Shown here in pieces: positions 8,968 to 50,804 of a DNA stretch of 64,000 bases. The number at the start of each line of letters is the position of its first letter. Position 1 is the stretch's first letter. Under the pieces are notes generated by a model. The model had not been told where the DNA came from. It did no database searches and was given only the letters and a program-made list of their open reading frames with translations. The DNA comes from Bacteroidaceae bacterium (lineage in GTDB: Bacteria > Bacteroidota > Bacteroidia > Bacteroidales > Bacteroidaceae): positions 45,328 to 109,327 of the forward strand of contig JAFROT010000035.1 of NCBI GenBank assembly GCA_017429525.1, given 5' to 3'. Position numbers and translations under genes: made by a program.

Positions 8968-8971
8968 AGAG

Positions 8972-17218: not shown

Positions 17219-17350
17219 GTCATCCAGAGAAGTCCTCAACTTTATCCTGATAAATCAGCGTTTCTATCCCGATAAATCCGCGATTTCATCCTGATAAGTT
17301 TCCGCTTTTATCCCGATAAATCTTCAACTTCGTACTGAGACGTCCAACAC
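17219..17350. repeat. 22-bp tandem array A (hairpin units, TTTATCCYGATAAA core)
   Basis: Four clear units start at 17241, 17263, 17285 and 17307. Each has a 14-base core close to TTTATCCCGATAAA (5-base arms around a CCYG loop) followed by an 8-base spacer. A degenerate unit fits on each side (17219 and 17329), making six. It lies just after the stop of the outer-membrane protein gene. The 22-base period is not a multiple of three, so this is not coding. Confidence 0.8.
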
Positions 17351-17377
17351 CTCTCCGTCGAAAGGCATACAAACAGT

Positions 17378-17430
17378 CAGTCGTGAGCAGATTTCCATTC
17401 AATTGGAATCTCACTCACGACTGATTTCTT
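17378..17430. terminator. Large hairpin, probable bidirectional terminator
   Basis: CAGTCGTGAG at 17378-17387 pairs with CTCACGACTG at 17414-17423. An inner GATTTCCA/TTGGAATC stem lies in the loop, and ATTTCTTT follows. It separates repeat arrays A and B in the convergent gap. Confidence 0.65.
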
Positions 17431-17458
17431 TATGGCATTAACGAAGGATTTGCTCCGG

Positions 17459-17590
17459 AATCTCTATGCGTGTGGCCCTGTACGTCTATACGTGTGGCCC
17501 TGAGCGTCTATATGTGTAAGCCTACGCGTCTATACGTGTGGCCCTGAGCGAGCGGACGTGTAAGCTTGTACGTCCATACGTGCTGGCGCG
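17459..17590. repeat. 22-bp tandem array B (TACGT-CTAT-ACGTG units)
   Basis: Six units start at 17459, 17481, 17503, 17525, 17547 and 17569. The core is 5-base arm TACGT, loop CTAT and arm ACGTG, then an 8-base spacer that is TGGCCCTG or a TAAGC-type variant. The units at 17481, 17525 and 17569 can form all five pairs, counting G-T wobble. The other three are partly decayed. The array ends at the stop of the polysaccharide-export gene. Confidence 0.8.
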
Positions 17591-17592
17591 CC

Positions 17593-18411
17593 TTACTTGG
17601 TGACGGCGATGACGACTGCTACGACGCTGGAGATGACGGCTACGATGCTGGCACCGGCGCTGAGGAAGGTGGTGAAGGCCGAGCTCTTCACGTTCTGGCT
17701 CTTGTTGGGTTCTACGTAGATGAGGTCGTTCTGCTGGACGTAGAAGGCGGGGCTCTGGAAGATGTTGGTGTCGGTAAGGTCGAGCTCGTAGCGCATGCGC
17801 TGTCCGTTCTCCTCACGATAGAGCGTCACTTTGCGACGGAGGGCCTGGTCGCTGACATCGCCGCACTGCGAGAGTACATCGAGGACCGTGTTGCGCTCGG
17901 AGTTGAGGGCTACGACATGCGGTTGCTTGACCGCACCCATGACAGCCACGCGGGCGTTGAGCAGACGGACCGTCACGTCGGGGTTCTTGATGATGTTCTT
18001 GCCGGAGATGGTGTTTTCGATGGCCACGGCTGCCTGGTCGCAGGTCAGACCGCCCACGTGCACCATGCCGATGACGGGCAGCTTCACGTCGCCATTGTTG
18101 TCGATGGTGTAGCCGTAGACCGAGCCCATCGAGCCCGTGGTGCCGTAGCTCATGTTGGCTCCGTTGCGCACGCCGGCGCCGAGGGTGATGTCCTGATTGA
18201 ACACCTCCAGCAGTTCGGGGTTGTCGCAGGTCACCTTGATCAGGATCTGGTCGGCAGGCTTCAGGTGCATCTCGTACTTCTGCAGGATTTGCTGGGCCTG
18301 CTGGAACATATCCTCAGAGCCTTGGAAGTAGACGATTTTCTTGGAACTCACGCATGAGGTGAGGCAGACGACCGCAGCGATGGCTACGGTCAGCGAGGCG
18401 AATTTCTTCAT
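17593..18411 (-). CDS. Polysaccharide export lipoprotein (Wza/BexD-like)
   Basis: A 272-residue lipoprotein (signal ending CLTSC) of the outer-membrane polysaccharide export family. The Poly_export domain covers about residues 45-140 (LKPADQILIKV, then GYTIDNNGDVKLPVIG). One SLBB-type domain follows (VRLLNARVAVMGAVKQPHVV). A hydrophobic C-terminal helix (FLSAGASIVAVISSVVAVVIAV) could anchor or cross the membrane. Such proteins normally sit beside a Wzc-type kinase and glycosyltransferases, but none are here, so it is an orphan copy that may serve a locus elsewhere. A consensus promoter precedes it. Confidence 0.9.
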   Translation of the reverse strand: MKKFASLTVAIAAVVCLTSCVSSKKIVYFQGSEDMFQQAQQILQKYEMHLKPADQILIKVTCDNPELLEVFNQDITLGAGVRNGANMSYGTTGSMGSVYGYTIDNNGDVKLPVIGMVHVGGLTCDQAAVAIENTISGKNIIKNPDVTVRLLNARVAVMGAVKQPHVVALNSERNTVLDVLSQCGDVSDQALRRKVTLYREENGQRMRYELDLTDTNIFQSPAFYVQQNDLIYVEPNKSQNVKSSAFTTFLSAGASIVAVISSVVAVVIAVTK

Positions 18412-18442
18412 TGTCTGTAGTGTTTTAGTCAGTTTAGTGGCG

Positions 18443-18474
18443 CAAAGGTAGTAGTTTCTTTTGAAAGCCCCAAA
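18443..18474 (-). promoter_or_regulatory. Promoter of the polysaccharide export gene
   Basis: On the minus strand TTTG (18471-18474), a 20-base spacer, then TACCTTTG (18443-18450). This is a full consensus match about 30 bases before the start codon. Confidence 0.75.
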
Positions 18475-18543
18475 AAATCTGAAAGAAAAAGCGCTGCGGA
18501 GGTTCCGCAGCGCTCATTATGTTGTATGTACAAGTAAGTCAGC

Positions 18544-21500
18544 TTACTTGACCAACACCTTCTGTACGGTGCCGTCGGCACGACGTACGATGTTGATGCC
18601 ACGACGGAGCGTGCTTGCCTGGCGGCCATCGATGGTGTAGATGGTCTTGGCAGCAGCGTTGGTCTCAGCAGCAATGCCTTCGACTGCATCGGGAGCCTCG
18701 GTGCCGAGGTACGTCAGCTTGAAGTTGTCGACAGCCACCCAGTTGCAGTTAGCATCTTCGACGAGGACACCTACGGTGGTGAGGTCCTTGCCATTGGAGT
18801 AGAAGTCGAGTGTGAAGGTGGTCGGGGTAGCGTTCTCAGCCTGAACGACGATGGACTCCTTGCGCGAAGCGTCGCCGATGCTTGCCCAGAGGTAGACACC
18901 CTTGAGTTCCTCGCTGAGACCGCCAGCACTACTCTGGTTGACAGCGTAGCCGTCAACGCTCAGCTGATAGTAGCCTTCGGGAAGGGCAGTAGCGATGGTC
19001 TGAGCAATCGTACCGTTGTTGAGGTGCGTGCTGGGACGCCAAGCCTCGATGAAGTGCTCGATGGAGAGACCAGTCTCCTCGTTAGCGTAGGAAGCGCTCT
19101 GATAGCCTTGGTTCTGACCCACGGTGATGGTGCTGCCATCCTCGGCAACTTCGGTACCCGTGATGGTCCAGTAGTTGGCATTGCCAAGCTCGAAGTCGGG
19201 GTTGTTCAGCACGGCAGTGATGTCGTCACCGGGCTCAGCCGTAGCAACGATAGCGGGGATGAAGCCTTCAGTCATCTTCTTGATGTACTCCTTCATCTCT
19301 TCGACGCTCTCGAAGGAGTCAGAGCTAATCTTGTCGTCGACCTCGGCGAGCAGGTTGAGGTAATCCTCGTCGGTGATTCCAGCTGCGTCAGCCTTGTCCT
19401 GATAGTTCTGGTGAGTGCTCATCACCTCGTTGGCAACAGTCTGACATTCCTTCACCTCGTCGATGATGTTCTTGAGGTCTTCGAGCAGAGCGAGAGCCTC
19501 GTCGGTGTTGGTGATGTCGTCGCTCTTCTCCACGCGAGCAAGGACGTCGCTTGCCTTAGCGAGAGTAGAGGGAGTCGTAATGCTATTGCTGAGCATGTCT
19601 TCGAGAGCAGCACCGCGCTCCTGAATCTCCTCGATGATAGGAATGATGCTCTCCTTACCGAGGTAGGTGAGGGTGAAGTTATCCCAGAGGATCCAGAGGT
19701 TGGTAGCGTTGCACTTCACGCCGATGGTGAGGTCGCCGCCCGTGTGGTAGATGTTGACGGTGTTGAGGTAGAAGGGCTGATCGGTCATCGGGTTGGTGGC
19801 CTCGAAGTAAGCCTTTGCACCTTCCATGGAGTTGGGCTGATAGCCAAGACCGTCGGAACGGGGGGTGTCATAAGGCCAACCGCCGCCGCTGATCTTATGG
19901 CCTTCGTCATCTGTGCCATCGCCCAGGAGAGCGTACTCGCTATACTCTTCGGTGATCTCCATGAACTTCTTCTCGGAGACACCAGCGTAGAGCACCATGT
20001 CGTTCTCGCCGCCATCGATGCGGACGAAGCCCTGAACGCCAATCTGGTAGGAACCAGCGGGCAGGTTCTTGATGGTCTGGTGGATATCAACAGCGCCGTG
20101 ATATCTTTCGATGTTGTGGTACGTAGCGGAGAGTTCAGTCAGCTGACCGTTGGTGATTTCCCAACCAGGAACAGACGTACCGGTGAGGTCACGACCGCTA
20201 CCCTGAGAGAAGTCAGCGTTCTTGATGAGAACGGTGAGGTTGTCACCGGACTTGATCTTCTCGGGATCGTTGAGGAACTCAGCGATGAGCTCGTCAACCT
20301 TGCCCTGAATGCTTTCGAGGTCAGCCTCGGTGAGCGTACCAGCGTTGAAGGCCTCGGTGAGTTCAACTTCAGCCCAGTCGGTGATGTTGTCCTGCAGCTC
20401 CTGCCACTGACCAGCGTTGTTCAGGTCCTGAGCGGTGAGCATAGCCTTGTTGTAGACATCCTGGAACTTCTTGTAGAGCGTCTCAGAGGCCTCGAGGTCT
20501 GCAGTAGCCTTGCCGAGATTCTCGACAGCTGCCTTCATGTCGTCGCCACTGCCATTGATGAGGGCAACCTTGGCTTCGTTAAGCGTAGCGTTGAAGGCAT
20601 CGATGACCTCCTGGTTGGCGTTCAGGATACCCGTGTCCTCAATGTTGTTGCCAACGATGAGGTCTTGTTTCTCTTCTGCCTTAGCGATAGCTTTTTCCAG
20701 ACCCTCCTTGTTGGGGTCTTCCTGCATAGCGCCGATAGCAAAGAGCTTGAAGTTGTCGGCGGAAATCCAGTTACAGTTGGTGTTCTCGACGAGCAGACCA
20801 ACGAGGAGCTTGTCAGCGTTGAAGTCGAACTCGAAGGTGTAGTGTTGAGGCATGTATTCACCTGTCTGAACGGGGTTCTTAGGATTGTAGATATTGTAGG
20901 AACCTGTGCTGGTGAAGATATATACACCCGTGAGCTGATCAACAGGAATCTGATTGCTCTGCTGGCAAGCAGTAGCGTCCATCTCGAGACGATAGCGGCC
21001 TGCAGGCAGACCTGTAATCCACTGACCTGCATAGCCATTGCCAAGGTGATCGGGCTGAGGAATCCAACACTCGAGGAAGTTGGTGATGGCGAGACCCGTC
21101 TCAGAGTTGGTATCGGTACGGTTCTGTTGACCGATGTTCTGACCTGTGATGGTGATTTCCCATCCCGGAGGAGTCTTACCATTGTCGCAGCTGGCGGAGA
21201 AGTCGGGGTTCGTCATCACGTAGCTGGTGACGTCGAAGGGCTCTTCCTCGCTGGAGTGAGCAATACCATAAGCTACAGCCAGGGGCTTGATAGCCTCCTT
21301 GAGGGCATCGTTGGCAGCGTTGATCTCAGCAACGGTAGCCTCGGCGTTGTTGTAGACAGCACCAGCCTCAGTGGCATCGGCACCGTACTTGTCAGCCTCG
21401 AGCAGGGTGTTGTAGAGCGCGTTCTTGGCGTTGTAGACTTCCATGGCAGCCTTGTAGGCATCGAAGGATGCAACGTAGTCGCTGGCAGCAACCTCCTCGA

Positions 21501-22176
21501 TGTAGGCGCGGATGGACTCAGCATCGTCAGCGGAGACGAACTTCCACAGCGCAGAAGCATCAGCGTTGTTCTGCAGGTCGGTCCAGGTGTAGAACGTCTG
21601 AGCAGAAGCGAGGTTGGGGAGGTGTACACCATAGACGATGGAGTTGCCTTCCTGACCGTCGAGGGGCAGCATCTCGTAAGCGTCGCCCACCTTGTTGAGG
21701 GTCCAGAAGCCGTTCTTGTCGGTATCGCGACGACCGGAGTTACCATCAACCCAAGCGGCATTGCCTTCGTGGCAGAGGTACTGGTCGTTGGCCGACTTGT
21801 TAGTGTTCACGTTCATGATCTGCCATGTGCCGGCCAGGGTCTCGTCCTCGAGGTAATCAGCCACGGGGTCAGTCTGGTGGAGCAGGAAGGGAAGGATGGT
21901 GTTCTTGTTGGTACCGACGTTCCAGGTGGGATCGCTGGTGGTGAGAATAGCAGCCGTCGTGGTGACAGCGCGTGTACCCCAATCCATACCGCAACCCAAG
22001 AACTGGCCTGTGCCAACGTTGTAGATGTAGTAGGTACCTTCGGTCTCGGGCTCTACCCATGTGCCATTATACTGGGGCATCGTGGGGAGACTGGGCTTTG
22101 TGGGCGCGTCCCAAGCGAAAGCACTCATACTCATCATCATTGCGCCTGCAAGCGCGAAGAGTAACTTGTGTTTCAT
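18544..22176 (-). CDS. Giant secreted multidomain surface protein with C-terminal sorting tail (paralog 1)
   Basis: A 1210-residue exported protein with a signal peptide (residues 1-21, MMSMSAFA). Near the N-terminus, YYIYNVGTGQFLGCG resembles a lectin-like opening. At least three beta-rich modules follow, each with an NPDF...W motif and a later WVAVDNFKL or similar closing strand, suggesting carbohydrate-binding-like folds. Helical FIVAR-type linkers rich in Ala, Glu and Lys separate them. The last ~35 residues (IYTIDGRQASTLRRGINIV onward) are almost the same as in the protein at 46299-49907 and look like a type IX-style C-terminal sorting signal. No enzymatic motif is seen. Likely role: surface adhesion or glycan binding (inference). 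Confidence 0.8.
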   Translation of the reverse strand: MKHKLLFALAGAMMMSMSAFAWDAPTKPSLPTMPQYNGTWVEPETEGTYYIYNVGTGQFLGCGMDWGTRAVTTTAAILTTSDPTWNVGTNKNTILPFLLHQTDPVADYLEDETLAGTWQIMNVNTNKSANDQYLCHEGNAAWVDGNSGRRDTDKNGFWTLNKVGDAYEMLPLDGQEGNSIVYGVHLPNLASAQTFYTWTDLQNNADASALWKFVSADDAESIRAYIEEVAASDYVASFDAYKAAMEVYNAKNALYNTLLEADKYGADATEAGAVYNNAEATVAEINAANDALKEAIKPLAVAYGIAHSSEEEPFDVTSYVMTNPDFSASCDNGKTPPGWEITITGQNIGQQNRTDTNSETGLAITNFLECWIPQPDHLGNGYAGQWITGLPAGRYRLEMDATACQQSNQIPVDQLTGVYIFTSTGSYNIYNPKNPVQTGEYMPQHYTFEFDFNADKLLVGLLVENTNCNWISADNFKLFAIGAMQEDPNKEGLEKAIAKAEEKQDLIVGNNIEDTGILNANQEVIDAFNATLNEAKVALINGSGDDMKAAVENLGKATADLEASETLYKKFQDVYNKAMLTAQDLNNAGQWQELQDNITDWAEVELTEAFNAGTLTEADLESIQGKVDELIAEFLNDPEKIKSGDNLTVLIKNADFSQGSGRDLTGTSVPGWEITNGQLTELSATYHNIERYHGAVDIHQTIKNLPAGSYQIGVQGFVRIDGGENDMVLYAGVSEKKFMEITEEYSEYALLGDGTDDEGHKISGGGWPYDTPRSDGLGYQPNSMEGAKAYFEATNPMTDQPFYLNTVNIYHTGGDLTIGVKCNATNLWILWDNFTLTYLGKESIIPIIEEIQERGAALEDMLSNSITTPSTLAKASDVLARVEKSDDITNTDEALALLEDLKNIIDEVKECQTVANEVMSTHQNYQDKADAAGITDEDYLNLLAEVDDKISSDSFESVEEMKEYIKKMTEGFIPAIVATAEPGDDITAVLNNPDFELGNANYWTITGTEVAEDGSTITVGQNQGYQSASYANEETGLSIEHFIEAWRPSTHLNNGTIAQTIATALPEGYYQLSVDGYAVNQSSAGGLSEELKGVYLWASIGDASRKESIVVQAENATPTTFTLDFYSNGKDLTTVGVLVEDANCNWVAVDNFKLTYLGTEAPDAVEGIAAETNAAAKTIYTIDGRQASTLRRGINIVRRADGTVQKVLVK

Positions 22177-22464
22177 AAAGCAGTTAATAATTAATTAGTT
22201 GAATGATTAAAAATGGTTTGGTAAACGTTTCTTTTTGGGTGCTTAAAGGGTATAATCGGCCCTAAGTGGTGGCAAAATTACACTTATTCCGCGAACGGCA
22301 CTCAGATTAGATGTTAAAAGTGCGTCCGTTTAAAGATTATTAACAAATAGAGGGCTTTTCACCGATAGTTGCAAGTTGATAATAAGTTCTCGCGCGCATG
22401 TGTACGCGTGGAAATAGAATAAGGTGTAGCGGTGAGGAAAGACTGTCGTGACAGCAGGGAGTGT
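22177..22464. other. Intergenic leader region of the giant surface protein
   Basis: 288 bases without a gene. A minus-strand TAATTTTG box at 22273-22280 is a plausible -7 element for the surface protein, giving a leader of about 95 bases. No clear -33 partner is seen. A TCGCGCGCATGTGTACGCG stretch lies near 22390, downstream of the hydrolase stop. Confidence 0.4.
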
Positions 22465-23622
22465 TCAGCGGTGGAGGCTGACGGTGAGCCGTGCCGGGCA
22501 GGCGTAGGCTGGGTCGGCATGGAAGGCGATGCACTCGCGCATCGTCTCTGCCGCTCGCGGTAGCCGGCCGTGGAAGAGCGTGCGACCCTGATAGCGCACG
22601 GTGACGCGGCGGTCGAGGTCGACGAGTCGGTCGGAGAGCCAGAAGGTGAGCTGCGAGTAGCTACATTCGCTGATGTCGATGACGTTGTCCTGACAGGTGA
22701 GGCGCACACGCTGGTAGCGACGGAGCTCGTCGGCAGGCGCTGTCAGCCAGTAGAAATGCTGGCGCAGCACTTCCTCTTGCTGCCAGACGATGGTGCGCGG
22801 GTAGGGGTTGCGCTGGTACTGCGCCATCCAGGGCAGGGCGAGGGTGTCGGCCCGGAGCATCCAGTGGCCCATGCCCTGCATGATGTGCGTCTCGTGGCGG
22901 TAGCCCTCGGGGTCGGTGCGCTGCAGGGAGTCGAGTTGGAGTCCGCGCTCAGCGTCCCGGCGGTTGCGGTCGTAGGCAGCATCGTCGGCGCCGCACCAGA
23001 TCATGAAAGGCGTGTTGCGGAGGTTCAGCAGGGAGACGTCGCCGGGGTGGCCTGCCATCATCGAGGCGGCAGCCCAGTGGTCGGCCATACGGGGCGCCAT
23101 GCGCCATAAGCCGTCGCCGCCTGCCGAGTAGCCCAGCAGATAGACTTTGTCGGGGTTGACGTCGAGGTGGGCTACGCACATGGCAATCAGTCGTTCGTAG
23201 AGACCGTCCAGGAGCGGCTTGAACCACATGTCCCAGTCGTTGTAAGGCGCACGGGGTGCTATGTAGACGCCTTCGGCAGGACGGTAGAGGCGCTTCTGGT
23301 TCTCCCATTGCTGGTCGTTGACGGAAGCGGGCGCGCTGCCGCCGCCATGCAGCGAGATCCATAGGCTGCGTCCGTCGGCAGGGCGCTCGCCATAGACGGC
23401 AGACCAGATGGGCATGGTCAGCGTGTCGGACTTGACGAGGCTCTGCTGCCATTCGTCGGCCGTTAGCTGACGCGTCTGCATGCACCATTCTGCTATCAAC
23501 TGCTTAGCCTGCTCCTCAGCCTTACGCCTGGACAGGCCGCGGGCATGGGCTGACGTCGCCAGTAAGGCTGCTGCGAGGATAAGCGCCGCGCGCTGTAGTG
23601 AGTTCAGGAATGAGGCGTTCAT
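22465..23622 (-). CDS. Secreted alpha/beta hydrolase (esterase/peptidase-like)
   Basis: A 385-residue protein with a signal peptide (ending SAHA) and an alpha/beta-hydrolase fold. The oxyanion-hole region is ISLHGGGSAP. The nucleophile elbow is LLGYSAGGDG with Ser in GYSAG. An Asp in IWCGADDAAYDRN and a His in MQGMGHWML complete a likely triad. It resembles phospholipase/carboxylesterase or prolyl-oligopeptidase-like proteins. The substrate is unknown. It overlaps the upstream MFS gene by four bases (ATGA), so translation is coupled. Together with two AmpG-like permeases it may process cell-wall-derived or peptide material in the periplasm (inference). Confidence 0.82.
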   Translation of the reverse strand: MNASFLNSLQRAALILAAALLATSAHARGLSRRKAEEQAKQLIAEWCMQTRQLTADEWQQSLVKSDTLTMPIWSAVYGERPADGRSLWISLHGGGSAPASVNDQQWENQKRLYRPAEGVYIAPRAPYNDWDMWFKPLLDGLYERLIAMCVAHLDVNPDKVYLLGYSAGGDGLWRMAPRMADHWAAASMMAGHPGDVSLLNLRNTPFMIWCGADDAAYDRNRRDAERGLQLDSLQRTDPEGYRHETHIMQGMGHWMLRADTLALPWMAQYQRNPYPRTIVWQQEEVLRQHFYWLTAPADELRRYQRVRLTCQDNVIDISECSYSQLTFWLSDRLVDLDRRVTVRYQGRTLFHGRLPRAAETMRECIAFHADPAYACPARLTVSLHR

Positions 23623-25142
23623 GATGCTTGCTTCTTACCGTAGTCGGGGTCGATCTTGATGAGGGCTGAGACGGCGAAGGTGACGAGGCAGCATGCCATC
23701 ACCCACCAGAAGAAGCGTTGGTAGCCAAGGTGGTCGGCCATCCAACCGGCTATCATGCCCGGAATCATCATGCCGAGGGCCTGCATGGCGGTGCAGATGC
23801 TGAAGACGGCCGTCGAGCGCTCGCCTTGCGAGAAATAGACGAGGTAGAGCATATAGGCGGTGAAGCCGAAGCCGTAGCCGAACTGCTCGACGAATACGCA
23901 GAGGTTGACCGTCACCAGGGGAGCGTGGTCGCCGGCAGCGGCAAACGACGGGGCGGCATAAGCGAGATAGACGTAGACGAGGTCGGGGAGTGAGATGGCC
24001 AGCACCATCGGCCAGAGCCAGCGCTTGAGCCCATGGCGCGAGACGCACCAGCCGCCGAGCAGGCCGCCCAGCGTGAGCCCGATGATGCCTATGGTGCCGT
24101 AGACGAAGCCCACGGCCTCGGTGCTGAGAGCGAGTCCGCCAGCGTCGGCGCTATCGAGCAGGAACGGGTTGGCTATCTTGACCAGCTGCCCCTCGGGGAA
24201 ACGGAAGAGGAGCATGAAGAGGAGCGCCGTCAGGATATGTGGCTTGGTAAAGAAGGTGCGGAGGGCGAGCCAGAAGGCAGAGGACCCTCCCCCCGAGGAC
24301 CCTCCCCCCGCCCTCCCTTGTAGGGAGGGAGCAGAATGAGTTTGACTGGCTGACATGCTACTACGGCGGGTGTCGGCGGCGTCAATGGGTGATGAATCCG
24401 TTTGACTGGCTGACATGCTATGCTGGATGTCGGCGGCGTCAATGGGTGAGGCTGCTGAATCTGACTGACGGGCACTCTCCGTTTCACCACTTGTCAGGTA
24501 ATCACTCCCCTCCCTAAAAGGGAGGGGCAGGGGGGTGGGTCTTTGGGGGGTGGGTCTGGCTGGTCTAGGCAAAGCTATGCTATGCCACAACCACAAGGCA
24601 ACGAACAGGCCTGCCAGCACGAGGAAGGTGATGCTCCATGCCATCGGGACGGATTGGCTGTGCTCCAGCCAACCTGCGAGCATGACCAAGAGACCTTGCC
24701 CGAAGATGTTGCCGATGCGGTAGAAGGTGCTGCGGATGCCTACGTAGAGGCTCTGGTCGTGGGTGGAGAGCCCGAGGATGTAGAGACCGTCGGCAGCGAT
24801 GTCGTGGGTGGCGCTGGCAAAGGCCAGCAGCCAGAAGAAAGCCAACGAGCCCTTCAGCCAGTAGGAGGTAGGGAGCGTGAAGGCGATGCCCGCGAAGCCT
24901 GCGCCGATGAGCAGTTGCATCACGAGTATCCACCACCGCTCCGTCTTGATGGCTGCGATGAAGGGACTCCAGAGGGGCTTGATGACCCATGGCAGATAGA
25001 GCCAGGAGGTGTAGAGGGCGAGGTCGGTGTTGGAGAGGCCGAGACGCTTGTACATCGTTGTGGCGATGACCATCACGGCCACGTAGGGTAGCGCTTCGGC
25101 CAGATAGAGCGAAGGCACCCAGGCATAGGGCTTGTTCTTCAT
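23619..25142 (-). CDS. AmpG-like MFS permease with a repeat-expanded central loop
   Basis: A 507-residue inner-membrane transporter with about 12 helices. The opening, PSLYLAEALPYV, and the THDIAADG motif in the fourth helix are typical of AmpG-type muropeptide permeases. The loop between the two halves (about residues 195-285) is abnormally long and low in complexity, built from a duplicated segment SPIDAAD...SMSASQT and Ser/Gly-rich tail. At DNA level it coincides with G/C-rich palindromes at 24311 and 24507. The gene is still open, so the insertions preserved the frame. It overlaps both neighbours by four bases (proS operon). Substrate inferred only. Confidence 0.85.
   Translation of the reverse strand: MKNKPYAWVPSLYLAEALPYVAVMVIATTMYKRLGLSNTDLALYTSWLYLPWVIKPLWSPFIAAIKTERWWILVMQLLIGAGFAGIAFTLPTSYWLKGSLAFFWLLAFASATHDIAADGLYILGLSTHDQSLYVGIRSTFYRIGNIFGQGLLVMLAGWLEHSQSVPMAWSITFLVLAGLFVALWLWHSIALPRPARPTPQRPTPLPLPFREGSDYLTSGETESARQSDSAASPIDAADIQHSMSASQTDSSPIDAADTRRSSMSASQTHSAPSLQGRAGGGSSGGGSSAFWLALRTFFTKPHILTALLFMLLFRFPEGQLVKIANPFLLDSADAGGLALSTEAVGFVYGTIGIIGLTLGGLLGGWCVSRHGLKRWLWPMVLAISLPDLVYVYLAYAAPSFAAAGDHAPLVTVNLCVFVEQFGYGFGFTAYMLYLVYFSQGERSTAVFSICTAMQALGMMIPGMIAGWMADHLGYQRFFWWVMACCLVTFAVSALIKIDPDYGKKQAS
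24281..24550. repeat. REP-like palindromes and 60-bp duplication inside the MFS gene
   Basis: Two palindromes bracket a duplicated segment. The first is CCCTCCC/GGGAGGG (24311-24329). The second is CCCCTCCCT/AGGGAGGGG with a 3-base loop (24507-24527). TTTGACTGGCTGACATGCTA occurs at 24341-24360 and again at 24401-24420. The second palindrome and its G-rich flank closely resemble the copies at 60086-60175. All of it lies in the cytoplasmic-loop coding region. Confidence 0.75.
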
Positions 25143-26497: not shown

Positions 26498-26530
26498 GTT
26501 GACAAGTGTGTGTTGAGGCGGGTGCTTTCG

Positions 26531-28012: not shown

Positions 28013-28045
28013 AATGTATTTTGAGCTTTTTTGTCTTTTGCGGTG

Positions 28046-28053
28046 CAAAGTTA
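28046..28053 (-). promoter_or_regulatory. Candidate -7 box of proS
   Basis: TAACTTTG on the minus strand, 33 bases before the proS start. The flank TAACTTTGCAC is the same as at the HU-like gene. The -33 element is not clear. Confidence 0.55.
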
Positions 28054-28117
28054 GTGAAATATCGTCAAAGAATCGAATAAATCTTGTGGTTTTGATTCGT
28101 TGTATCGAGAATTTATG

Positions 28118-28125
28118 TACTTTTG
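28118..28125 (+). promoter_or_regulatory. -7 box of the OmpA lipoprotein gene
   Basis: TACTTTTG 53 bases before the start codon. A TTTG lies at 28091-28094, but its 23-base spacing is longer than usual. Confidence 0.55.
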
Positions 28126-28178
28126 CACTCAGAAAGCTACTTTAAACAACACTTTTATTCACTAAAACACAGTACAAC

Positions 28179-28907
28179 ATGAAAGGATTAAAGTTCTATG
28201 CACTCGGCCTCTGCGCCGCATTGCTATTCAATTCTTGCAACATGACCAACACTGCCAAGGGCGGTATGATTGGTGGTACGAGCGGCGCAGCCCTCGGTTC
28301 AGCTCTCGGCGCTATCCTGGCCAAGAGCGGCAACAAGGGCAAGTGGGCTGGCATCGCCGGTGCTGCCGGTGCTGTCGCTGGTACGACAGCCGGTGTGCTC
28401 ATCGGTCGTAAGATGGACAAGGCAAAAGCTGAGGCCGAGCGTATCGCTAATGCTCAGGTTGAGAGCGTCGTCGACGGCAATGGCTATCAGGCCGTTAAGG
28501 TGACCTTCGACAGCGGTATCCTCTTCCAGACGGGTAAGTCGGCTCTCAACGCCGTCGCTCAGAGCTCGCTCAACAACTTCGCCTCCAACGTGCTGATTCC
28601 CAACTCTGATATGAGCGTAGGTATCATCGGCTACACCGACAATGCGGGCTGGAAGAACAGCACCGCCGACCAGAGCAAGCAGAAGAACCAGAAACTCTCG
28701 CAGGATCGCGCACAGGCTGTCAGCAGCTATCTGCTGAAGCAGGGCGTCGGCGCAGGCCAGATCAAGGAAGTTGCCGGCCTTGGCGAGGACAACCCCGTTG
28801 CCGACAACAGCACGGCTGCCGGTAAGGCTCAGAACCGCCGCGTCGAGGTTTACCTCTATGCCAGCGATGAGATGATCAAGGCTGCTGAGGCTGGTACGCT
28901 CCAGTAA
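28179..28907 (+). CDS. OmpA-family lipoprotein (YiaD-like)
   Basis: A 242-residue lipoprotein (signal ending LFNSC) attached to the outer membrane. A glycine-rich, glycine-zipper-like stretch (GGMIGGTSGAALGSALGAILA and onward, residues 28-75) precedes a C-terminal OmpA domain (about 105-230). The peptidoglycan-binding signatures are IIGYTDNAG and NRRVEVYL. It would link the outer membrane to peptidoglycan. It is monocistronic, with its own promoter and a strong terminator. The glycine zipper may insert in or oligomerise on membranes. Confidence 0.92.
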   Translation: MKGLKFYALGLCAALLFNSCNMTNTAKGGMIGGTSGAALGSALGAILAKSGNKGKWAGIAGAAGAVAGTTAGVLIGRKMDKAKAEAERIANAQVESVVDGNGYQAVKVTFDSGILFQTGKSALNAVAQSSLNNFASNVLIPNSDMSVGIIGYTDNAGWKNSTADQSKQKNQKLSQDRAQAVSSYLLKQGVGAGQIKEVAGLGEDNPVADNSTAAGKAQNRRVEVYLYASDEMIKAAEAGTLQ

Positions 28908-28961
28908 TCGGGTCTCCGTTCTGCCCCTTTGCAGGGCCGACTCAAGAGAATTAACTCAAAC

Positions 28962-28997
28962 AAGAAGAGGGTGCGCAAGTGTGCGTACCCTCTTCTT
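28962..28997. terminator. Bidirectional terminator between ompA-like and HU-like genes
   Basis: AAGAAGAGGGT (28962-28972) pairs with ACCCTCTTCTT (28987-28997), with further pairing in the loop and CTCTTTT after it. It serves the OmpA lipoprotein gene. Confidence 0.75.
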
Positions 28998-29095
28998 CTC
29001 TTTTGTTCGCCCTTACGGACGGAAGGTCAGTTCTCGCCTTGGTGGCCTCGGACCAGCCGGGCCGTTGAAGGCCCCTCTTAGCCGTTGCCGCCCTC

Positions 29096-29656
29096 TTAGC
29101 CGTTGCCGCCCTCGCCGCCTTCGCCGCTCCCGGAGCCTTCGCCGCTCTCGGAGCCTTCGCTGGTCTTGGTCCAGTCGGCCTGCGTCTCGCCGCGCTTCTG
29201 GGCGCGGAGGGCAGCCTGCTGCGCCTCGCGGGTGATGGTCACCTCGAAGGTAGCCTCGGCCAGCTTGTCCATGAGCTTCTTCGACTGCGTGAAGTTCACG
29301 TTCAGGCCCTTGATGTTGGAGGCCGTGAACATCTCCGACGCCGTCTTGGGGTTGCCGTCCTTGTCCTTGCCGGCAGAGGCGCCCTCGCTGGTGATGGTGG
29401 TCTTGAGCACGCCCAGGTCGCCCAGGTGCACGTTGTTGCCCTCCATCAGCGCCTCGGCCACGCACTTGGTCATGTCGACGAGGATGCCCTGGATGGAGCC
29501 GCTGGAGAATGGCGAGCCGTGGTCCACGATGTGGTCGGCCAGCTCGGGCAGGGTGATCGTCTTCTGGTGCTGGATGTTGGCGTAGGCCTTCTTCTCCTCC
29601 TCGGCGTTCATGGGGTTGGGGCGTTCGTTGACGCTGTACTTGATTGATTCTCGCAT
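29096..29656 (-). CDS. HU-related DNA-binding protein with an acidic Gly/Ser/Glu tail
   Basis: A 186-residue member of the long HU/IHF-like family of Bacteroidetes (histone-like, TIGR01201 group). Residues 1-130 carry the HU fold: ITLPELADHIVDHG, then HLGDLGVLKTTI. The last ~25 residues are a low-complexity Gly/Ser/Glu tail ending GGEGGNG. It presumably shapes or bridges DNA in the nucleoid. An 18-base segment holding the stop codon is duplicated just downstream, suggesting recent slippage in the tail. A TAACTTTG promoter box lies about 120 bases upstream. Confidence 0.88.
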   Translation of the reverse strand: MRESIKYSVNERPNPMNAEEEKKAYANIQHQKTITLPELADHIVDHGSPFSSGSIQGILVDMTKCVAEALMEGNNVHLGDLGVLKTTITSEGASAGKDKDGNPKTASEMFTASNIKGLNVNFTQSKKLMDKLAEATFEVTITREAQQAALRAQKRGETQADWTKTSEGSESGEGSGSGEGGEGGNG

Positions 29657-29774
29657 GGTGTAAACGATTTAATGGTTAATGAAAAGTGTGGGTTGTTGTC
29701 GTTCAGGTTCCGCTACTCCGGGCCTCCGTATTGCGCGCTGCATCAGCCCTTTGTTCTTCTCCTTTTTGACAGTG

Positions 29775-29805
29775 CAAAGTTACGAAATAATCCTGAATCT
29801 ACCAA
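29775..29805 (-). promoter_or_regulatory. Promoter of the HU-like gene
   Basis: Minus strand TTGG (29802-29805), 19-base spacer, TAACTTTG (29775-29782). The -33 element is one base off consensus. Confidence 0.55.
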
Positions 29806-29935
29806 GCATTTACGCAATTTATTTTAAAGAAAATCAGGCGTTTCATTAGCCTGCTTTTAAGTGATGAGTGAAGGACTTTAGCACTATTCTCAACTTACGA
29901 AATAATGAATGGAAATATATTTTATTGCCGAAAAG

Positions 29936-29967
29936 TTTCGCCTTCTCAGTAAAGATCAGTAATTTTG
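29936..29967 (+). promoter_or_regulatory. Promoter of the first RAYT-like gene
   Basis: TTTC (29936-29939), 20-base spacer, TAATTTTG (29960-29967), about 26 bases before the ATG at 29994. The rest of the 337-base gap (29657-29993) is AT-rich, and I see only this promoter and that of the HU-like gene. Confidence 0.6.
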
Positions 29968-29993
29968 TGGCCATGACAAGCTAATTGTGCCTC

Positions 29994-31364
29994 ATGAAAC
30001 GCAAGGAACAGATAGAAGCGAAGAGACTTCATGCCGGCGATAAGAAGCCATCCATGAAGCGACGCGACGACCACAACGACTATCATGGACGACGTATGTA
30101 CATGATTACCCTGGAGGTGGAAGGCCGTCGGCCGCTGTTCGGGGAGGTGGTTGGCGGCCCTTTCTCAATGGCTGCAAGCCCAGAAGCTCCCCGTGTCGAG
30201 CTGTCACCGATTGGGGCTATGGTGCAGGCCGAGTGGCAGGGCATTCCCCGCTACTACCCTCAGATCGAGGTGCTATCGCTCCAGATGATGCCTGATCACC
30301 TCCACGGCATTCTCTTTGTCCATGAGTCTCTTCCCGTCCACCTCGGCCATGTGCTGGGCGGCTTCAAGAAAGGTTGCGAGCGCAAGTGGAGCGCGATGCT
30401 TGGAGCGGCTAACAACGGGGCTGCCAACGGGGTTGCCAACGGAGCTGCCAACGGAGCTGCGGCAAAGCCGCAGCCTACTCCAAACGCAATCATGGAGCAG
30501 GCCGCCGCAGGCGTCTCTTCATCAGTGATCACCTCGCCGTCCTCGCCCCTTCCTGCCTCGCCATCCTCCTCCGTTCTTGCCTCGCCATCCTCGCCCCTTC
30601 CTGCCTCGCCGTCCTCCTCCGTTCCTGCCTCGCCATCCTCGCCCCTTCCTGCCTCGCCATCCTCGCCCCTTCCTGCCTCTCCGTCCTCTTCTGTTCCTGC
30701 CTCGCCATCCTCGCCCCTTCCTGCCTCGCCGTCCTCCTCCGTTCCTGCTTCGCCGTCTTGCCTTCTTTCAGTGCAGGGTGCGGCTCTGCCGCAGCTTCTT
30801 TCTGCCTCCAAGCCCCGCCTCTTCGCCCTCGGCTACAACGACCTGCTCCTGAAGAGCTATGACGAACTGCAAAGGTGGAAGCACTACCTCGCCGACAACC
30901 CGCGCCGCTTGCTCTTGAAGCGCGCCCGTCCCGAGTTCCTCCGCCCACGGTTCAACATGGAGAGAGGCGGCTATACCTTTGCGGCCATTGGCAACCTCGA
31001 GCTGCTTGACAGCCCCTGCCGCCTTCAAGTCCGCGTGTCACGCCGCTGTACTTCGGCTCAAGTGCGGGAAGAGATAGCCCGTTATCTGGCGGCAGCCCGT
31101 GAGGGGGCAGTCCTCGTCTCGCCCTCCATCTCGCCCGGCGAGAAAGCCGTCATGCGCGCAGCCTTCGACGCCCGATTGCCCCTCATCGTCCTCGTGGAGA
31201 ATGGCTTCACGCCCCTCACCAAGCCTCGCGGCGAGCAGTTCGATGCCTGCGCAGCCGGTCGCCTCCTCCTCCTCGCTCCCTGGGAGCACCACAATGACCG
31301 CCGCGCCATCACCGTCCAGCAATGTCAACAACTCAACCTGATGGCTACGGCGCTATGCAGGTGA
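29994..31364 (+). CDS. RAYT-like HUH transposase with repeat linker and DprA/LOG-like C-terminal domain
   Basis: A 456-residue protein in three parts. Residues ~25-130 form an IS200/REP-associated (Y1) transposase core with the HUH motif MPDHLH near 99. Residues ~180-260 are a low-complexity linker of SPSSPLPA/SPSSSVPA repeats. Then WKHYLADNPRR near 297 supplies the probable catalytic tyrosine. Residues ~355-456 look like a Rossmann fold of the DprA/LOG kind (VLVSPSISPGEKAVMRAAF, then GEQFDACAAGRLLLLAPW). The start is the ATG at 29994. An upstream TTG is also possible. Single-stranded DNA transposition of palindromic repeats is the known role of the core family, and the C-terminal role is unknown. 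The homologous protein at 58555 has the same layout. Confidence 0.8.
   Translation: MKRKEQIEAKRLHAGDKKPSMKRRDDHNDYHGRRMYMITLEVEGRRPLFGEVVGGPFSMAASPEAPRVELSPIGAMVQAEWQGIPRYYPQIEVLSLQMMPDHLHGILFVHESLPVHLGHVLGGFKKGCERKWSAMLGAANNGAANGVANGAANGAAAKPQPTPNAIMEQAAAGVSSSVITSPSSPLPASPSSSVLASPSSPLPASPSSSVPASPSSPLPASPSSPLPASPSSSVPASPSSPLPASPSSSVPASPSCLLSVQGAALPQLLSASKPRLFALGYNDLLLKSYDELQRWKHYLADNPRRLLLKRARPEFLRPRFNMERGGYTFAAIGNLELLDSPCRLQVRVSRRCTSAQVREEIARYLAAAREGAVLVSPSISPGEKAVMRAAFDARLPLIVLVENGFTPLTKPRGEQFDACAAGRLLLLAPWEHHNDRRAITVQQCQQLNLMATALCR
30533..30765 (+). repeat. In-frame tandem repeats inside the first RAYT-like gene
   Basis: Repeats of about 24 bases alternate CCTCGCCCCTTCCTGCCTCGCCAT with CCTCCTCCGTTCCTGCCTCGC variants, encoding an expandable Ser/Pro/Ala linker between the HUH and tyrosine motifs. 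Copy-number change would keep the frame. Confidence 0.85.
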
Positions 31365-31506
31365 GAGCAGCAGCATAAAAAGAGAAAATGCGAAAAGAAC
31401 AAAATGTTAAGTGGTCTTTTAGGGCGTTCGAATAGTATGGAAGAACAGTGCCAACTACGCTCGCTCAAAAGCAATTATCTATTAATAATATCTAAAAGCA
31501 GAAAGA

Positions 31507-32058
31507 ATGGATATTTACAAGAATGCGGAACTACGTGTTCTGCGGCATCTGGCTGATGATCCAGAAGAATTAATACCCGAAGGGATGGAAGACTGGGAGT
31601 TCTATGCCACTTGCGACAGGCTGGAAAAGCGAGGCTGCGTACGTGTGGCATGGATTGAAGGTCACGAGGCAGAGGATGCCATGATCCTCGACACCGGCAG
31701 GATGCGGCTCAAGGAACTTGAGATGGAATTAGCGGGTGAAGAGAGTGAGCTGGAACGATTGCGGAGAGAGAACGAGGAGTTGAAAGCCAAGCTCCAAGAG
31801 TTGCAGAATCCGCAGGACGATGAAACCGTCAAGGACTTGGCCGCCTGTTTCTTTGGCGACACAGACGTTGCGCGGCATTTCCTGCACCAGATAAGGTTGG
31901 TGCCTGATAAAGAGAAGCCGTCTATCGCAAAGCAGTATATGAATCAGAACAAGCTCAGTCCGCTTTCGGCTAGAAACGACCTATATTCCATTCTGGTGAA
32001 GCATGGACTTTATTCTAAGCGATTGAACAATTGGACTCAATTGTTGAACAAAGCATAA
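31507..32058 (+). CDS. Hypothetical protein with N-terminal winged-helix-like region and coiled coil
   Basis: A 183-residue cytoplasmic protein that I do not recognise. Residues 1-75 (LRVLRHLADD through CVRVAWIEGHE) could form a small winged helix. Residues ~78-105 form a strongly charged coiled coil (ELERLRRENEELKAKLQEL). The C-terminal ~75 residues are helical and contain LSARNDLYSILVKHGLYSKR. Base composition is less GC-rich than the core genes around it, and it lies in the accessory stretch between the RAYT-like gene and a replication-type gene pair. A terminator follows the stop directly, so it is its own unit. A DNA-binding or regulatory role is only a guess. Confidence 0.7.
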   Translation: MDIYKNAELRVLRHLADDPEELIPEGMEDWEFYATCDRLEKRGCVRVAWIEGHEAEDAMILDTGRMRLKELEMELAGEESELERLRRENEELKAKLQELQNPQDDETVKDLAACFFGDTDVARHFLHQIRLVPDKEKPSIAKQYMNQNKLSPLSARNDLYSILVKHGLYSKRLNNWTQLLNKA

Positions 32059-32080
32059 CAAGACACTTATATACATCACA

Positions 32081-32113
32081 GAAGGAGTCAACAGCGATGT
32101 TGGCTCCTTTTTC
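32081..32113 (+). terminator. Terminator of the coiled-coil hypothetical gene
   Basis: GGAGTCAACA and TGTTGGCTCC form a stem around GCGA, followed by TTTTTCTG. This is a textbook Rho-independent terminator starting about 25 bases after the stop. Confidence 0.8.
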
Positions 32114-32199
32114 TGTTTGAAAATTGAAATCAATATTGATGAACCACTATAAAAACATTGACAAAGTGCTTTTTATTGCAGCAGATTTCCAATTATGCT

Positions 32200-32231
32200 T
32201 TTGTAGGAATAGGTGGTTGGTAGTAATTTTG
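32200..32231 (+). promoter_or_regulatory. Promoter of the ATPase/primase pair
   Basis: TTTG (32200-32203), 20-base spacer, TAATTTTG (32224-32231). The full consensus match lies about 185 bases before the ATPase start, so the transcript carries a long leader. Confidence 0.7.
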
Positions 32232-32416
32232 CGCTCGGAGAAGACCCTCTCCGGGCGCATTTTGTATTTGTGACGGGTCGGTAATCCTCCACACATATTC
32301 TATAGGTTATGTGTACAATGTCTAAGGATTCATCCTAAGCACGGGACCTGTCAAGCTCTGAAATCGTCTATGGGGCTTGAAGTGCGAGACACAATCTTCC
32401 ATATAAACAAACAATC
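32232..32416 (+). promoter_or_regulatory. Structured ~180-nt leader upstream of the ATPase gene
   Basis: This holds several possible stems. GCGCTCGGAGA/TCTCCGGGCGC lies right at the presumed transcript start (32231-32258) and is followed by ATTTTGTATTTG. A CTAAGGAT/ATCCTAAG pair lies near 32320, and TCAAGC/GCTTGA near 32350-32382. No open frame of note is present. It could be an attenuator, a copy-control RNA remnant or an untranslated cis-regulator. It accounts for most of the 358-base gap. Confidence 0.5.
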
Positions 32417-33523
32417 ATGGAAGCATTATCCCCCCAAGTCCTGGCCGACGCAATCGTCGATCAGGCAGTAGCCCAGCCGACCTCGGAGGAGCAGGTGCGG
32501 GCCCAACAGTTGGCAGAGCTGACGTCTCTGCGCATCACGACCTCAACGGTAGTAGAGGCTGAGCAGTATGCGCTGTCGGTTGACGGCGTCGGATTCTTCG
32601 CCCTGGGCGACGTCCACGGCCTGAAAGGCAAGCAGAAAACGGGCAAGAGCGCTGTGTTGAAGGTCTGTGCCGCAGCCTTGCTCAGCGGTCAGCAGTTCCG
32701 CGTCAAGTCAGAACTGATGGAGCCAACGGTGTTGTTCATCGACACCGAGCAGAAAGCGTCTGACGTGAAGCTTATCATCGACGAACTCAAGGAGATGACG
32801 CAGTGCACGGACGAGTACATCGACCAGCACCTACATCTCTTCTCCCTTCGTCGCAAGAGCTATGATTCGCTGCTCAGCGACACCCGACTGCTCATCGAGG
32901 AAATCAAGCCGCAGGTGGTCTTCATCGACGGCTTGGTAGACTACGTGGCTTCGTTCAACGACGAGGTCATGTCGCGCGAGCTCATCCACGAGCTCCTGCA
33001 AATCTGCGAAGAGCACGGCTGTGCCATCGTCAACGTGCTGCACGAGAACAAGGCTGCCGACGACCAGAACATGCGTGGTCACCTCGGCACCGTGCTCTCG
33101 CAGAAGGCTGGGTCCGTGCTGCAGTGCCAGAAGACGAAGTCGGGCGTCATCAGCGTCAGCTGTCCCGATGCGCGCCATGGCAACATGCCGACGTGGAACA
33201 TCCGCTTCAACAGCGAAGGGCATCTCATCGACGCCGACCAGCAGCGCCATGCCGAACTACAGGCAGAGCGTGAACGTAAGGCAGCCGCCAGGCAGGAGGC
33301 CAAGGAGTTGCAGCAGGAGCAACGCCTGAACGCGACCTTGCACTTCATTGCTGAGAAGGACGGAAGCCTCCCGCGTAATGAGTTGACCAAGAAGCTGGAA
33401 ACAGAGCTGAACCTCTCGCGTTCGGCAGTCTCGAAGTTCATCACTCAAATGGTGAAGGACGGCAAACTGTGTGAGAACAACAAAATGATCACCGCAAGCC
33501 CCGACGTGACCCTGCCATTCTGA
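32417..33523 (+). CDS. RecA-fold AAA ATPase of mobile-element type (RepA/AAA_25-like)
   Basis: A 368-residue cytoplasmic ATPase. The P-loop is in GLKGKQKTGKSAVLK (about residues 74-88). Walker B is in PQVVFIDGLVDYV (about 173). A charged helix (ERKAAARQEAKELQQEQ) leads to a C-terminal winged-helix-like domain (about 305-360, RNELTKKLETELNLSRSAVSKF). This resembles hexameric RepA-like helicases and the AAA_25 ATPases common in Bacteroidales plasmids and integrated elements. A primase-like gene follows about 100 bases later behind a large hairpin, so the pair looks like a replication module. No integrase or mobilisation gene is nearby, suggesting a remnant or a domesticated unit. Confidence 0.82.
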   Translation: MEALSPQVLADAIVDQAVAQPTSEEQVRAQQLAELTSLRITTSTVVEAEQYALSVDGVGFFALGDVHGLKGKQKTGKSAVLKVCAAALLSGQQFRVKSELMEPTVLFIDTEQKASDVKLIIDELKEMTQCTDEYIDQHLHLFSLRRKSYDSLLSDTRLLIEEIKPQVVFIDGLVDYVASFNDEVMSRELIHELLQICEEHGCAIVNVLHENKAADDQNMRGHLGTVLSQKAGSVLQCQKTKSGVISVSCPDARHGNMPTWNIRFNSEGHLIDADQQRHAELQAERERKAAARQEAKELQQEQRLNATLHFIAEKDGSLPRNELTKKLETELNLSRSAVSKFITQMVKDGKLCENNKMITASPDVTLPF

Positions 33524-33546
33524 CGGGCTGAGAACATGTTCCTGTG

Positions 33547-33587
33547 CGTTTGTTCTTCCTTCCCTATATATGAAGGAAGAACGAACG
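33547..33587. repeat. 16-bp-arm hairpin between the ATPase and primase-like genes
   Basis: CGTTTGTTCTTCCTTC (33547-33562) pairs with GAAGGAAGAACGAACG (33572-33587) at 15 of 16 positions around a 9-base loop. No long T-run follows. It could tune read-through between the two genes or be a protein-binding dyad or origin-type palindrome. Confidence 0.7.
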
Positions 33588-33627
33588 AACGGGAATTCAC
33601 AAAGAACGAACAAAAAACATAAGAATC

Positions 33628-34554
33628 ATGAAAACAGATTTTCGCTATCAATTGGACAGCCCCCGCGTGACGGGGCGCCGTCAGCAGAAGACCACCTGCC
33701 CGCAATGTGGTCGCCGCAAGTGCTTCGTGCGTTATGTAGATACGCACGATGACTATCGCTACCTCCACGACACCGTAGGCCGTTGCGACCATGAGCAGTC
33801 GTGTGGCTACCACTATCGTCCGTCGGAATACTTTCATGACCATCCCTGGATGAAGAAGGAATCTCCGAACTTTCATCCACGGCCATTGACGCCACCGCCT
33901 CCACCACCGCTGACTCCATTGCCGATGGAGTTAGTCGACGCGTGCCATTCGACGCAGAGCACCTTCTGGCTATGGTTTGCAGGCGATTGTGCCCGAACGC
34001 TTGACTTCGATTCCGAGACGGTGAGGCGAGTCTACGAGGACTATCACATCGGCAGCGCCGATCAAGGAGACATCATCTTCTGGCAAATCGACGAACAGCA
34101 GCGAGTACGCACGGGGCACGTCATGGCTTACGACAACCACGGCCATCGCTATGGCCACAACGGTTGGGTTCACGATGACTTGCAAAGCGGGCGGATGCGT
34201 GGCCAGCTGCCCGAGGGCTACGTCCTGCAACAATGTTTTTTCGGCCAGCACTTGCTGCCCAAGTACCCCGATGCACATGTCTGTCTGGTCGAAAGCGAGA
34301 AGACCGCTCTCATCATGGCTGCTCGCCAGACGCCACATCTGTGGCTGGCCACCTGTAGCAGTGGCGGACTGAACGCAGAGAAACTGGAATGCTTGCGCGG
34401 TCGCCGTTTCACGCTGTTTCCCGACAGCGGATGCCTCGAGAAGTGGCAGACCATCATGAGCAAGACCAAGGGGCTGCACTATTCGATTTCCGATCAGATG
34501 GAGCCCTTCCCTCCAAATACAGATTTGGCTGACCTCCTTTTGCAGAGGGGGTGA
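33628..34554 (+). CDS. Primase-like protein with zinc finger and Toprim-like region (DUF6371 type)
   Basis: A 308-residue protein. The N-terminus carries a zinc-ribbon-like set of cysteines (TCPQCGRRKCF and VGRCDHEQSCGYHY), as in primases. A proline-rich linker (about residues 85-105) follows. The C-terminal half has a Toprim-like core: HVCLVESEKTALIMA, then LFPDSGCLEKW. This arrangement matches DUF6371-type proteins found beside RepA-like ATPases in Bacteroidales mobile elements. A role in priming replication is inferred from the family and partner, not shown. The gene ends just before 22-bp repeat array C. Confidence 0.75.
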   Translation: MKTDFRYQLDSPRVTGRRQQKTTCPQCGRRKCFVRYVDTHDDYRYLHDTVGRCDHEQSCGYHYRPSEYFHDHPWMKKESPNFHPRPLTPPPPPPLTPLPMELVDACHSTQSTFWLWFAGDCARTLDFDSETVRRVYEDYHIGSADQGDIIFWQIDEQQRVRTGHVMAYDNHGHRYGHNGWVHDDLQSGRMRGQLPEGYVLQQCFFGQHLLPKYPDAHVCLVESEKTALIMAARQTPHLWLATCSSGGLNAEKLECLRGRRFTLFPDSGCLEKWQTIMSKTKGLHYSISDQMEPFPPNTDLADLLLQRG

Positions 34555-34560
34555 CCATGC

Positions 34561-34692
34561 TTTGAATAGTCGGCTGAGTGAAGTTGAATAGTCGACTCGT
34601 CGCAGTTGAATACTCGACTTCACTCAGTTGAATAGTCAACTCGCCGCAGTTGAATAGTCAGCTGCGGCGGGTTGAAGGGTCGAGAAAAAAGG
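34561..34692. repeat. 22-bp tandem array C (GTTGA-ATAG-TCAAC units)
   Basis: Six units start at 34561, 34583, 34605, 34627, 34649 and 34671. Core GTTGA, loop ATAG, arm TCAAC or a G-U-compatible variant (TCGAC, TCAGC), then an 8-base spacer such as TCGTCGCA or TCGCCGCA. Outer units are partly decayed. It fills the convergent gap between the primase-like gene and the TRIC gene. Confidence 0.85.
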
Positions 34693-50803: not shown

Positions 50804-50804
50804 T

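Follow-up and report, generated by a model that had tools for sequence, protein, structure and literature searches.

Features of the locus

A stretch of 64,000 nucleotides (nt) from Bacteroidaceae bacterium (GenBank assembly GCA_017429525.1, contig JAFROT010000035.1, positions 45,328 to 109,327 of the forward strand), referred to below as the window, carries three tandem arrays, A, B and C, in two gaps between convergent genes (Table 1). They belong to a dispersed class of short extragenic arrays in which a 22-bp unit recurs head to tail, mostly about 3 to 6 times, its length and mirror symmetry being kept and much of its sequence not. A preliminary description of the window had reported three arrays of about six 22-nt units, mutually unrelated in sequence and all placed in convergent gaps, and these statements were borne out. 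The self-match at lag 22 was 0.63 for A, 0.65 for B and 0.66 for C, a score reached by none of 1000 dinucleotide shuffles of each array at any lag from 10 to 44. The distance to the nearest stop codon is 2-27 nt (stops of +17192 and -17593 for A and B, of +34554 and -34709 for C), array B ending 2 nt from the stop of the polysaccharide export gene. Each unit had been described as a hairpin of two 5-nt arms around a 4-nt loop, followed by an 8-nt spacer (the 5-4-5 plan below). The arrays do not follow a CRISPR-like plan, the 8-nt "spacers" mostly repeating along with the unit.

Table 1. Arrays and adjoining features in the window
Feature	Position	Strand	Description
Array A	17219-17350		Six 22-nt units, core TTTAT-CCYG-ATAAA; 27 nt 3' of the + gene 15540-17192
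Array B	17459-17590		Six 22-nt units; ACGT-ATAG-ACGT family, as read on the - strand
Array C	34561-34692		Six 22-nt units, GTTGA-ATAG-TCAAC
Hairpin between A and B	17375-17425		Possibly a two-way terminator
Gene 5' of array A	15540-17192	+	550 aa, no Pfam match
Polysaccharide export protein (Poly_export, SLBB)	17593-18411	-	3' end adjoins array B
DUF6371 / zinc-ribbon protein	33628-34554	+	5' of array C
Glycine-transporter-like gene (PF03458)	34709-35371	-	3' end faces array C

Around the strong hairpin that lies between A and B, positions 17360-17440 form a fold on either strand (z -6.5 and -5.9), though a T-run scan called no terminator there. Array C holds nested longer inverted repeats, with an 18-bp stem near 34655 and a longer stem near 34600. 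Its units 1 and 3 have 8-nt spacers that are perfect reverse complements of each other, and the spacers of units 4 and 5 come close to this, which produces the long nested inverted repeats. Repeats of a different kind, simple arrays with units of about 7 nt (ATTTACC, AGAGTTA and TTTTCAC types), lie elsewhere in the window at 50802-50885, 53202-53270 and 55313-55367.

Period and distribution

Noncoding arrays were counted by lag after removal of those with strong periodicity of 1-12 nt and those with at least half of their length in called genes; the counts rest on gene calls made with an in-house open reading frame (ORF) and codon heuristic, not on annotation. The organisms sampled are draft Bacteroidales genomes, many labelled rumen, omasum or other gut, and include Prevotellaceae bacterium UBA4372; the genus is perhaps GTDB's UBA4372. 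In 464 kb of the genome to which the window belongs, 17 lag-22 arrays were found, and no other lag between 14 and 43 gave more than two; three of the 17 come from the window, and the remaining 400 kb belong to two long contigs in which matches to B likewise occurred. The 15 arrays called at lag 44 are a harmonic of lag 22. A further 29 genomes of the genus (1195 kb) gave 40 arrays at lag 22, three at lag 21 and one at lag 23, so that the genus as a whole (30 genomes, 1659 kb) holds 57 lag-22 arrays versus three at lag 21 and two at lag 23. At least one lag-22 array is present in 18 of the 30 genomes, the window's own included. A setting with a 44-nt scanning window gave the same picture.

Searched against its own genome, the gap between genes that holds A and B matched 54 pieces at E<=10 and about 25 places at E<=0.001 (itself included), mostly through B, which is a member of a dispersed repeat family of that genome. 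The arrays fetched in this way have related yet distinct units, and tandem homogenisation is plain in them. The same genome holds a noncoding element of about 430 bp, of which 13 copies were aligned (e.g. L078:12960-13450, L154, L161, L148 and L165). It contains an inverted repeat of CTACACTTTAGCAC and ends in a perfect 22-bp palindrome, TTATTCGGTCGCGACCGAATAA, which runs directly into a B-family 22-nt array; no Rfam match was found in the five loci searched.

Outside the genus the step is less uniform. Thirteen genomes from other families of the order (400 kb) contained no lag-22 array and one each at lags 21 and 23. Among 80 named loci (1371 kb, some from the genus) there were 39 arrays at lag 22, 11 at lag 21 and five at lag 23; the 11 of these loci that were assigned to other groups (165 kb; nine of them named, e.g. 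Paraprevotella, Alloprevotella and Bacteroides) held no lag-22 array, and two of them held lag-21 arrays. Lag-22 arrays probably extend beyond the focal genus, since in a protein tree loci L342 and L357 stand well apart from the window's gene, within the part that holds Alloprevotella (two of the 80 proteins were skipped for stops). Several lag-21 and lag-23 arrays look palindromic, as judged without a control. In 61 kb of genome G101 (L317) five array calls were made at 23 nt, two at 24 and one at 22, some of them overlapping; the step in this genome (L317, L360, L361) is thus mostly 23 nt (5 of 8 calls), which suggests a lineage-specific step. Two arrays at 21 and two at 22 were called in G102 (L326), and two at 21 in the Alloprevotella genome G103 (L358). 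A strict 22-nt period in all relatives therefore does not hold: the 22-nt step prevails in the genus as sampled and not across the whole class. Sampling of the genome and its relatives, along the lines that the preliminary description had proposed, showed the class to be widespread.

Symmetry of the unit

Symmetry was assessed in 94 arrays with distinct units (16 from the own genome, 40 from the genus and 38 from the named loci), arrays identical in unit having been removed; the genus and named-loci sets share genomes (L322 = G007, L329 = G051, L316 = G012). The best dyad placed between two bases pairs 6.7, 6.9 and 7.2 of 11 positions in the three sets versus 5.2-5.4 in shuffled units (z 6.2, 9.2 and 11.2), and base-centred symmetry is not above the null in the 94 arrays. 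Dyads recur every 11 bp, at the unit centre and 11 bp on. In the genus and named-loci sets pairing exceeds the null both at the centre and at outer positions, so that no loop stays unpaired throughout; for the own genome, pairing two positions out from the centre lies below the null. In some units the whole 22 bp form a perfect palindrome. Noncoding DNA holds three perfect palindromes of exactly this length in the own genome and one in the genus, with no clear excess. The commonest spacing between short noncoding palindromes is 22 bp (7 in the own genome, 20 in the genus), with 44 bp (4 and 9) and 11 bp (2 and 9) also seen.

The 5-4-5 plan was scored in 67 arrays, a set in which many had been retrieved by their similarity to B, with a mean of 3.96 versus 3.47 for shuffled units and p<0.05 in 16 of the 67. 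Arms with loops of 0, 2, 4, 6, 8 or 10 nt are similarly enriched, which indicates that the unit is a whole quasi-palindrome and not a hairpin with a fixed 4-nt loop. When the 22 columns were permuted identically in every unit (2000 permutations), the plan stood firmly in array C (28 of 30 pairs, 0/2000) and marginally in A (22 of 30, 140/2000) and B (26 of 30, 110/2000), the best register of B differing from the one first described. The specific hairpin with an 8-nt spacer is thus not supported, the symmetry spanning the entire 22-mer. The same form with different sequence, which the preliminary description had emphasised, is real and was seen in 18 of the 30 genomes sampled in the genus; it points to a constraint or a generator that acts on symmetry and spacing. 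Unit identity and consensus symmetry, expected to be correlated if arrays are born perfect and then decay, are not significantly so (rho 0.11).

Gene context and turnover

Convergent gaps hold 28 of 84 arrays versus a background of 197 of 1276 gaps (15%; p 5e-5), the 10 of 94 arrays without a called neighbour being omitted. Clustering in convergent gaps is therefore a preference and not a rule: 39 of the 84 arrays lie in co-directional gaps, 29 of these closer to the stop of the upstream gene, and 17 in divergent gaps. The ATAG loop is on the same strand as the gene in nine cases and on the opposite strand in 21 (p 0.04), a weak bias among arrays partly fetched for likeness.

The near relative G041 lacks array A in its A-B gap and carries, at the place of B, a single array with a different unit; array C has a diverged counterpart there. 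In G015 an array of other sequence lies behind the same gene as C. Two genes that nearly abut in the window (8967-8972) are split in G041 (L129) by a 22-nt array of about five units; at this site the end of one gene also differs. At an array beside a gene for a REP-associated tyrosine transposase (RAYT; REP, repetitive extragenic palindrome), the members of an orthologous pair share only the last unit, as compared by eye. In these few cases the arrays are gained, lost and rewritten faster than the adjoining genes.

Families and covariation

Family 1 comprises 17 arrays from up to 6 genomes with a CGTG core. Family 2, with 15 arrays in up to 8 genomes, has two cores, CATG and ATT. Genome labels number 8 and 10 in the two families, some genomes having more than one label. 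Of the 14 arrays in the B family 11 come from the own genome, and 25 arrays are singletons. All 17 rows of family 1 were aligned and 13 of the 15 of family 2, L275:1688 and L293:16243 being out of register and omitted. Pairing is seen in 78% of cells in family 1 and 80% in family 2, and falls to 14-50% when partners are slid by 1-3 columns. Between arrays of a family the cores are kept and the arms are altered on both sides together: two-sided changes occupy 27 cells versus 15.4 in shuffles in family 1, and 18 versus 7.3 in family 2 (0/500 shuffles in each). One-sided G-U forms are few in both. Two-sided arm changes thus exceed shuffles between arrays of a family, but within single arrays two-sided pair-restoring changes (28) do not (24.8 in shuffles). 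The symmetry accordingly looks like a property of the founder or of occasional renewal of the whole array. Variants are mirrored across an array's own dyads at p<=0.05 in 22 of 94 arrays (total 374 versus 314). The two ends of an array resemble each other in inverted orientation above the 95th percentile in 25 of 91 arrays, and in direct orientation in 10; three of the 94 were not included.

Interpretation

The preferred reading, given a probability of roughly 0.4, is that the arrays are extragenic DNA of the kind of REPs and bacterial interspersed mosaic elements (BIMEs), with a symmetry produced by hairpin strand switching, copied by tandem amplification and kept near gene 3' ends. Strand switching in DNA hairpins, with one arm copied from the other as in the known mutation type of quasi-palindrome correction (PMC3820800), would make and renew the symmetry. 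In favour of it are the joint arm changes between arrays of a family, the mirrored variants within arrays and the inverted likeness of array ends. Tandem copies would arise by slippage or unequal exchange, and arrays may persist near 3' ends because promoters are avoided there. The 22-bp step, equal to two helical turns, and the conserved cores suggest that a protein reads the arrays; the likeliest ruler of the step would be a dimeric DNA-binding or topology protein.

Several results weigh against this reading. The number of pairs with two-sided changes and the number of further pair types do not surpass those of shuffles, both in family 1 (224/500 and 340/500) and in family 2 (75/500 and 100/500), and kinship among rows can make an alignment beat its shuffles without any structure. 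To these is added the lack of an excess within single arrays. The mirrored-variant test, whose null merely reorders the few units of each array, gave p 0.10, 0.10 and 0.91 for A, B and C, and the end-repeat signal is inflated, its end zones taking in 11 nt of palindromic core. Symmetry is lower in arrays with more units (rho -0.43). A purely mutational process accounts neither for the fixed 22-bp step nor for the uneven distribution among groups and the lesser variation of cores than of arms.

Alternatively, the arrays would be tandem operator-like sites, one dimeric protein of nucleoid, topology or partition type occupying each 22 bp on one face of the helix and the families corresponding to different specificities. 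A unit of two helical turns, the 11-bp spacing of the dyads and family cores common to up to 6 and 8 genomes all fit. However, independent half-sites of one protein should not covary, and the arms differ within a family with both half-sites changed together; even within one genome the cores stay and the arms differ between arrays on both sides. Steps of 21, 23 or 24 nt also occur in some relatives. This explanation is considered rather unlikely as it stands. More doubtful still is a lineage-specific system that would write tandem palindromes of set length (22 bp in the genus, about 21 or 23-24 bp for certain relatives) into the 3' flanks of genes, most letters being ignored and one 11-bp half copied from the other.

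A role as RNA, in which the arrays would be trains of hairpins in 3' untranslated regions or two-way intrinsic terminators of convergent genes, is improbable for the class. The preference for gene 3' ends is in its favour, as is the fold of array C, which is very strong on the + strand (-67.3 kcal/mol, z -9.9) and the - strand (z -8.1); array A folds moderately (z -3.6 and -2.7), departures from pairing on the + strand of C include G.T and no A.C, and a few arrays have A-run/T-run flanks. Array B, however, folds no better than shuffles, and 17 of 84 arrays lie in divergent gaps. Selection on RNA would favour G.T, and no such excess was found: departures from pairing on the transcript strand comprise 227 G.T and 254 A.C (p 0.24, 84 arrays), and one-sided changes over the 94 arrays comprise 109 G.T versus 94 A.C, so the earlier statement that pairing is kept by G-U changes is not upheld. 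The sense strand folds better than the antisense in just 32 of 74 arrays (23 of 46 non-convergent), the 20 of 94 without a gene pointing at them being left out; a two-way terminator would give equal strands, so the convergent cases alone are not decisive. Flank polarity was terminator-like in 39 and opposite in 33 of the 94 arrays, among which individual ones may qualify. No Rfam family matched the arrays; the sole match in the window at gathering score is the class A RNase P RNA at 44001-44401. Overall the evidence favours a symmetry at the level of DNA and not of RNA, and an RNA role is possible for individual arrays such as C.

Mobilisation of REP/BIME-like repeats by RAYT (TnpA-REP) transposases would explain dispersed extragenic palindromes near 3' ends, and the genus has diverged RAYT-like genes, with 11 matched stretches in the own genome and up to 13 elsewhere. 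The window ORF 29985-31364 matches the NCBIfam model REP_Tyr_transpos with E 0.008 and C5:55958-57238 with E 3e-10, both below the model cut-off, and an array lies 48 bp from the stop of the latter. A subclass of such genes, mostly from Bacteroidetes, is reported to be flanked by atypical secondary structures (PMC6006769). The window protein itself is a RAYT-like HUH protein (motifs PDHLHGI and YLADNP) that has a low-complexity insert and is extended at the C-terminus; it belongs to a strongly diverged family present in many copies in the genus. Against such an origin, arrays are frequent where no RAYT or Y1 gene was detected, and it was rejected: the RAYT query found no match in 12 genomes that carry 20 arrays in 395 kb (7 of the 12 having at least one), versus 10 arrays in 400 kb of 10 genomes with many matches. 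Five of the array-bearing genomes (G007, G024, G051, G049 and G023, with 14 of those 20 arrays) have no PF01797 or NF047646 match at E<=0.1. An array lies within 1.5 kb of only 7 of the 30 RAYT loci, and the REP tags GTAG and CGTC occur in 11 and 16 of the 94 units, numbers similar to those of shuffles (13.6 and 13.4). RAYTs are not required for the arrays, within the limits of draft genomes in which a gene may be missed, and an origin driven by them is very improbable.

That the arrays are ordinary minisatellites, palindromic by chance or composition, is scarcely credible: tandem homogenisation, the marginal 5-4-5 results for A and B and the lack of a clear excess of free palindromes would agree with it, but the symmetry of the 94 arrays beats the shuffled-unit and column-permuted controls and ordinary slippage has no cause to pick 22.

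REP-like repeats are usually put down to a sequence-specific transposase, which appears dispensable here, and length and mirror symmetry persist where much of the sequence does not. If this holds, the arrays would reflect either a DNA-level generator of tandem palindromes with a set length or a protein to which symmetry and spacing matter more than the letters. The many arrays and the close genome pairs make the birth, homogenisation and loss of arrays traceable.

Comparison with known systems

Plasmid iterons are tandem repeats of about two helical turns, few per replicon, beside the rep gene and of one sequence; unlike them, the arrays are numerous and diverse. Bacterial minisatellites, or variable number tandem repeats, resemble the arrays in their tandem copies, homogenisation within the array and fast turnover. 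They differ in that they share no unit length or symmetry across unrelated loci.

Quasi-palindrome correction is a template-switch mutation that extends the arm identity of an imperfect inverted repeat (PMC3820800). It is described there as mutations in reversion assays in yeast and, unlike the arrays, involves no tandem array or fixed length.

The arrays also resemble REPs and BIMEs. These are GTAG- and CGTC-tagged, lie downstream of genes and in convergent or unidirectional gaps, and have stems with alternative complementary residues, in which G-T pairing is read as a sign of RNA function (PMC3733652). The arrays are likewise dispersed, extragenic and palindromic, with several families per genome, and likewise lie downstream of genes and in convergent gaps; they depart from REPs and BIMEs in the tags, the link to RAYTs and the G-T pairing. 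The GTAG-1 REPs of Thauera have 5-bp stems, are largely clustered and were found via a tandem repeat database (PMC3733652). They differ from the arrays in carrying GTAG and in belonging to another phylum, and no 22-bp ruler is seen in the text consulted (PMC3733652). The preliminary description knew of no named element with such a plan, and no recognisable published description was found here, in a literature coverage that is incomplete. The arrays may be read as a variant of extragenic palindromic repeats.

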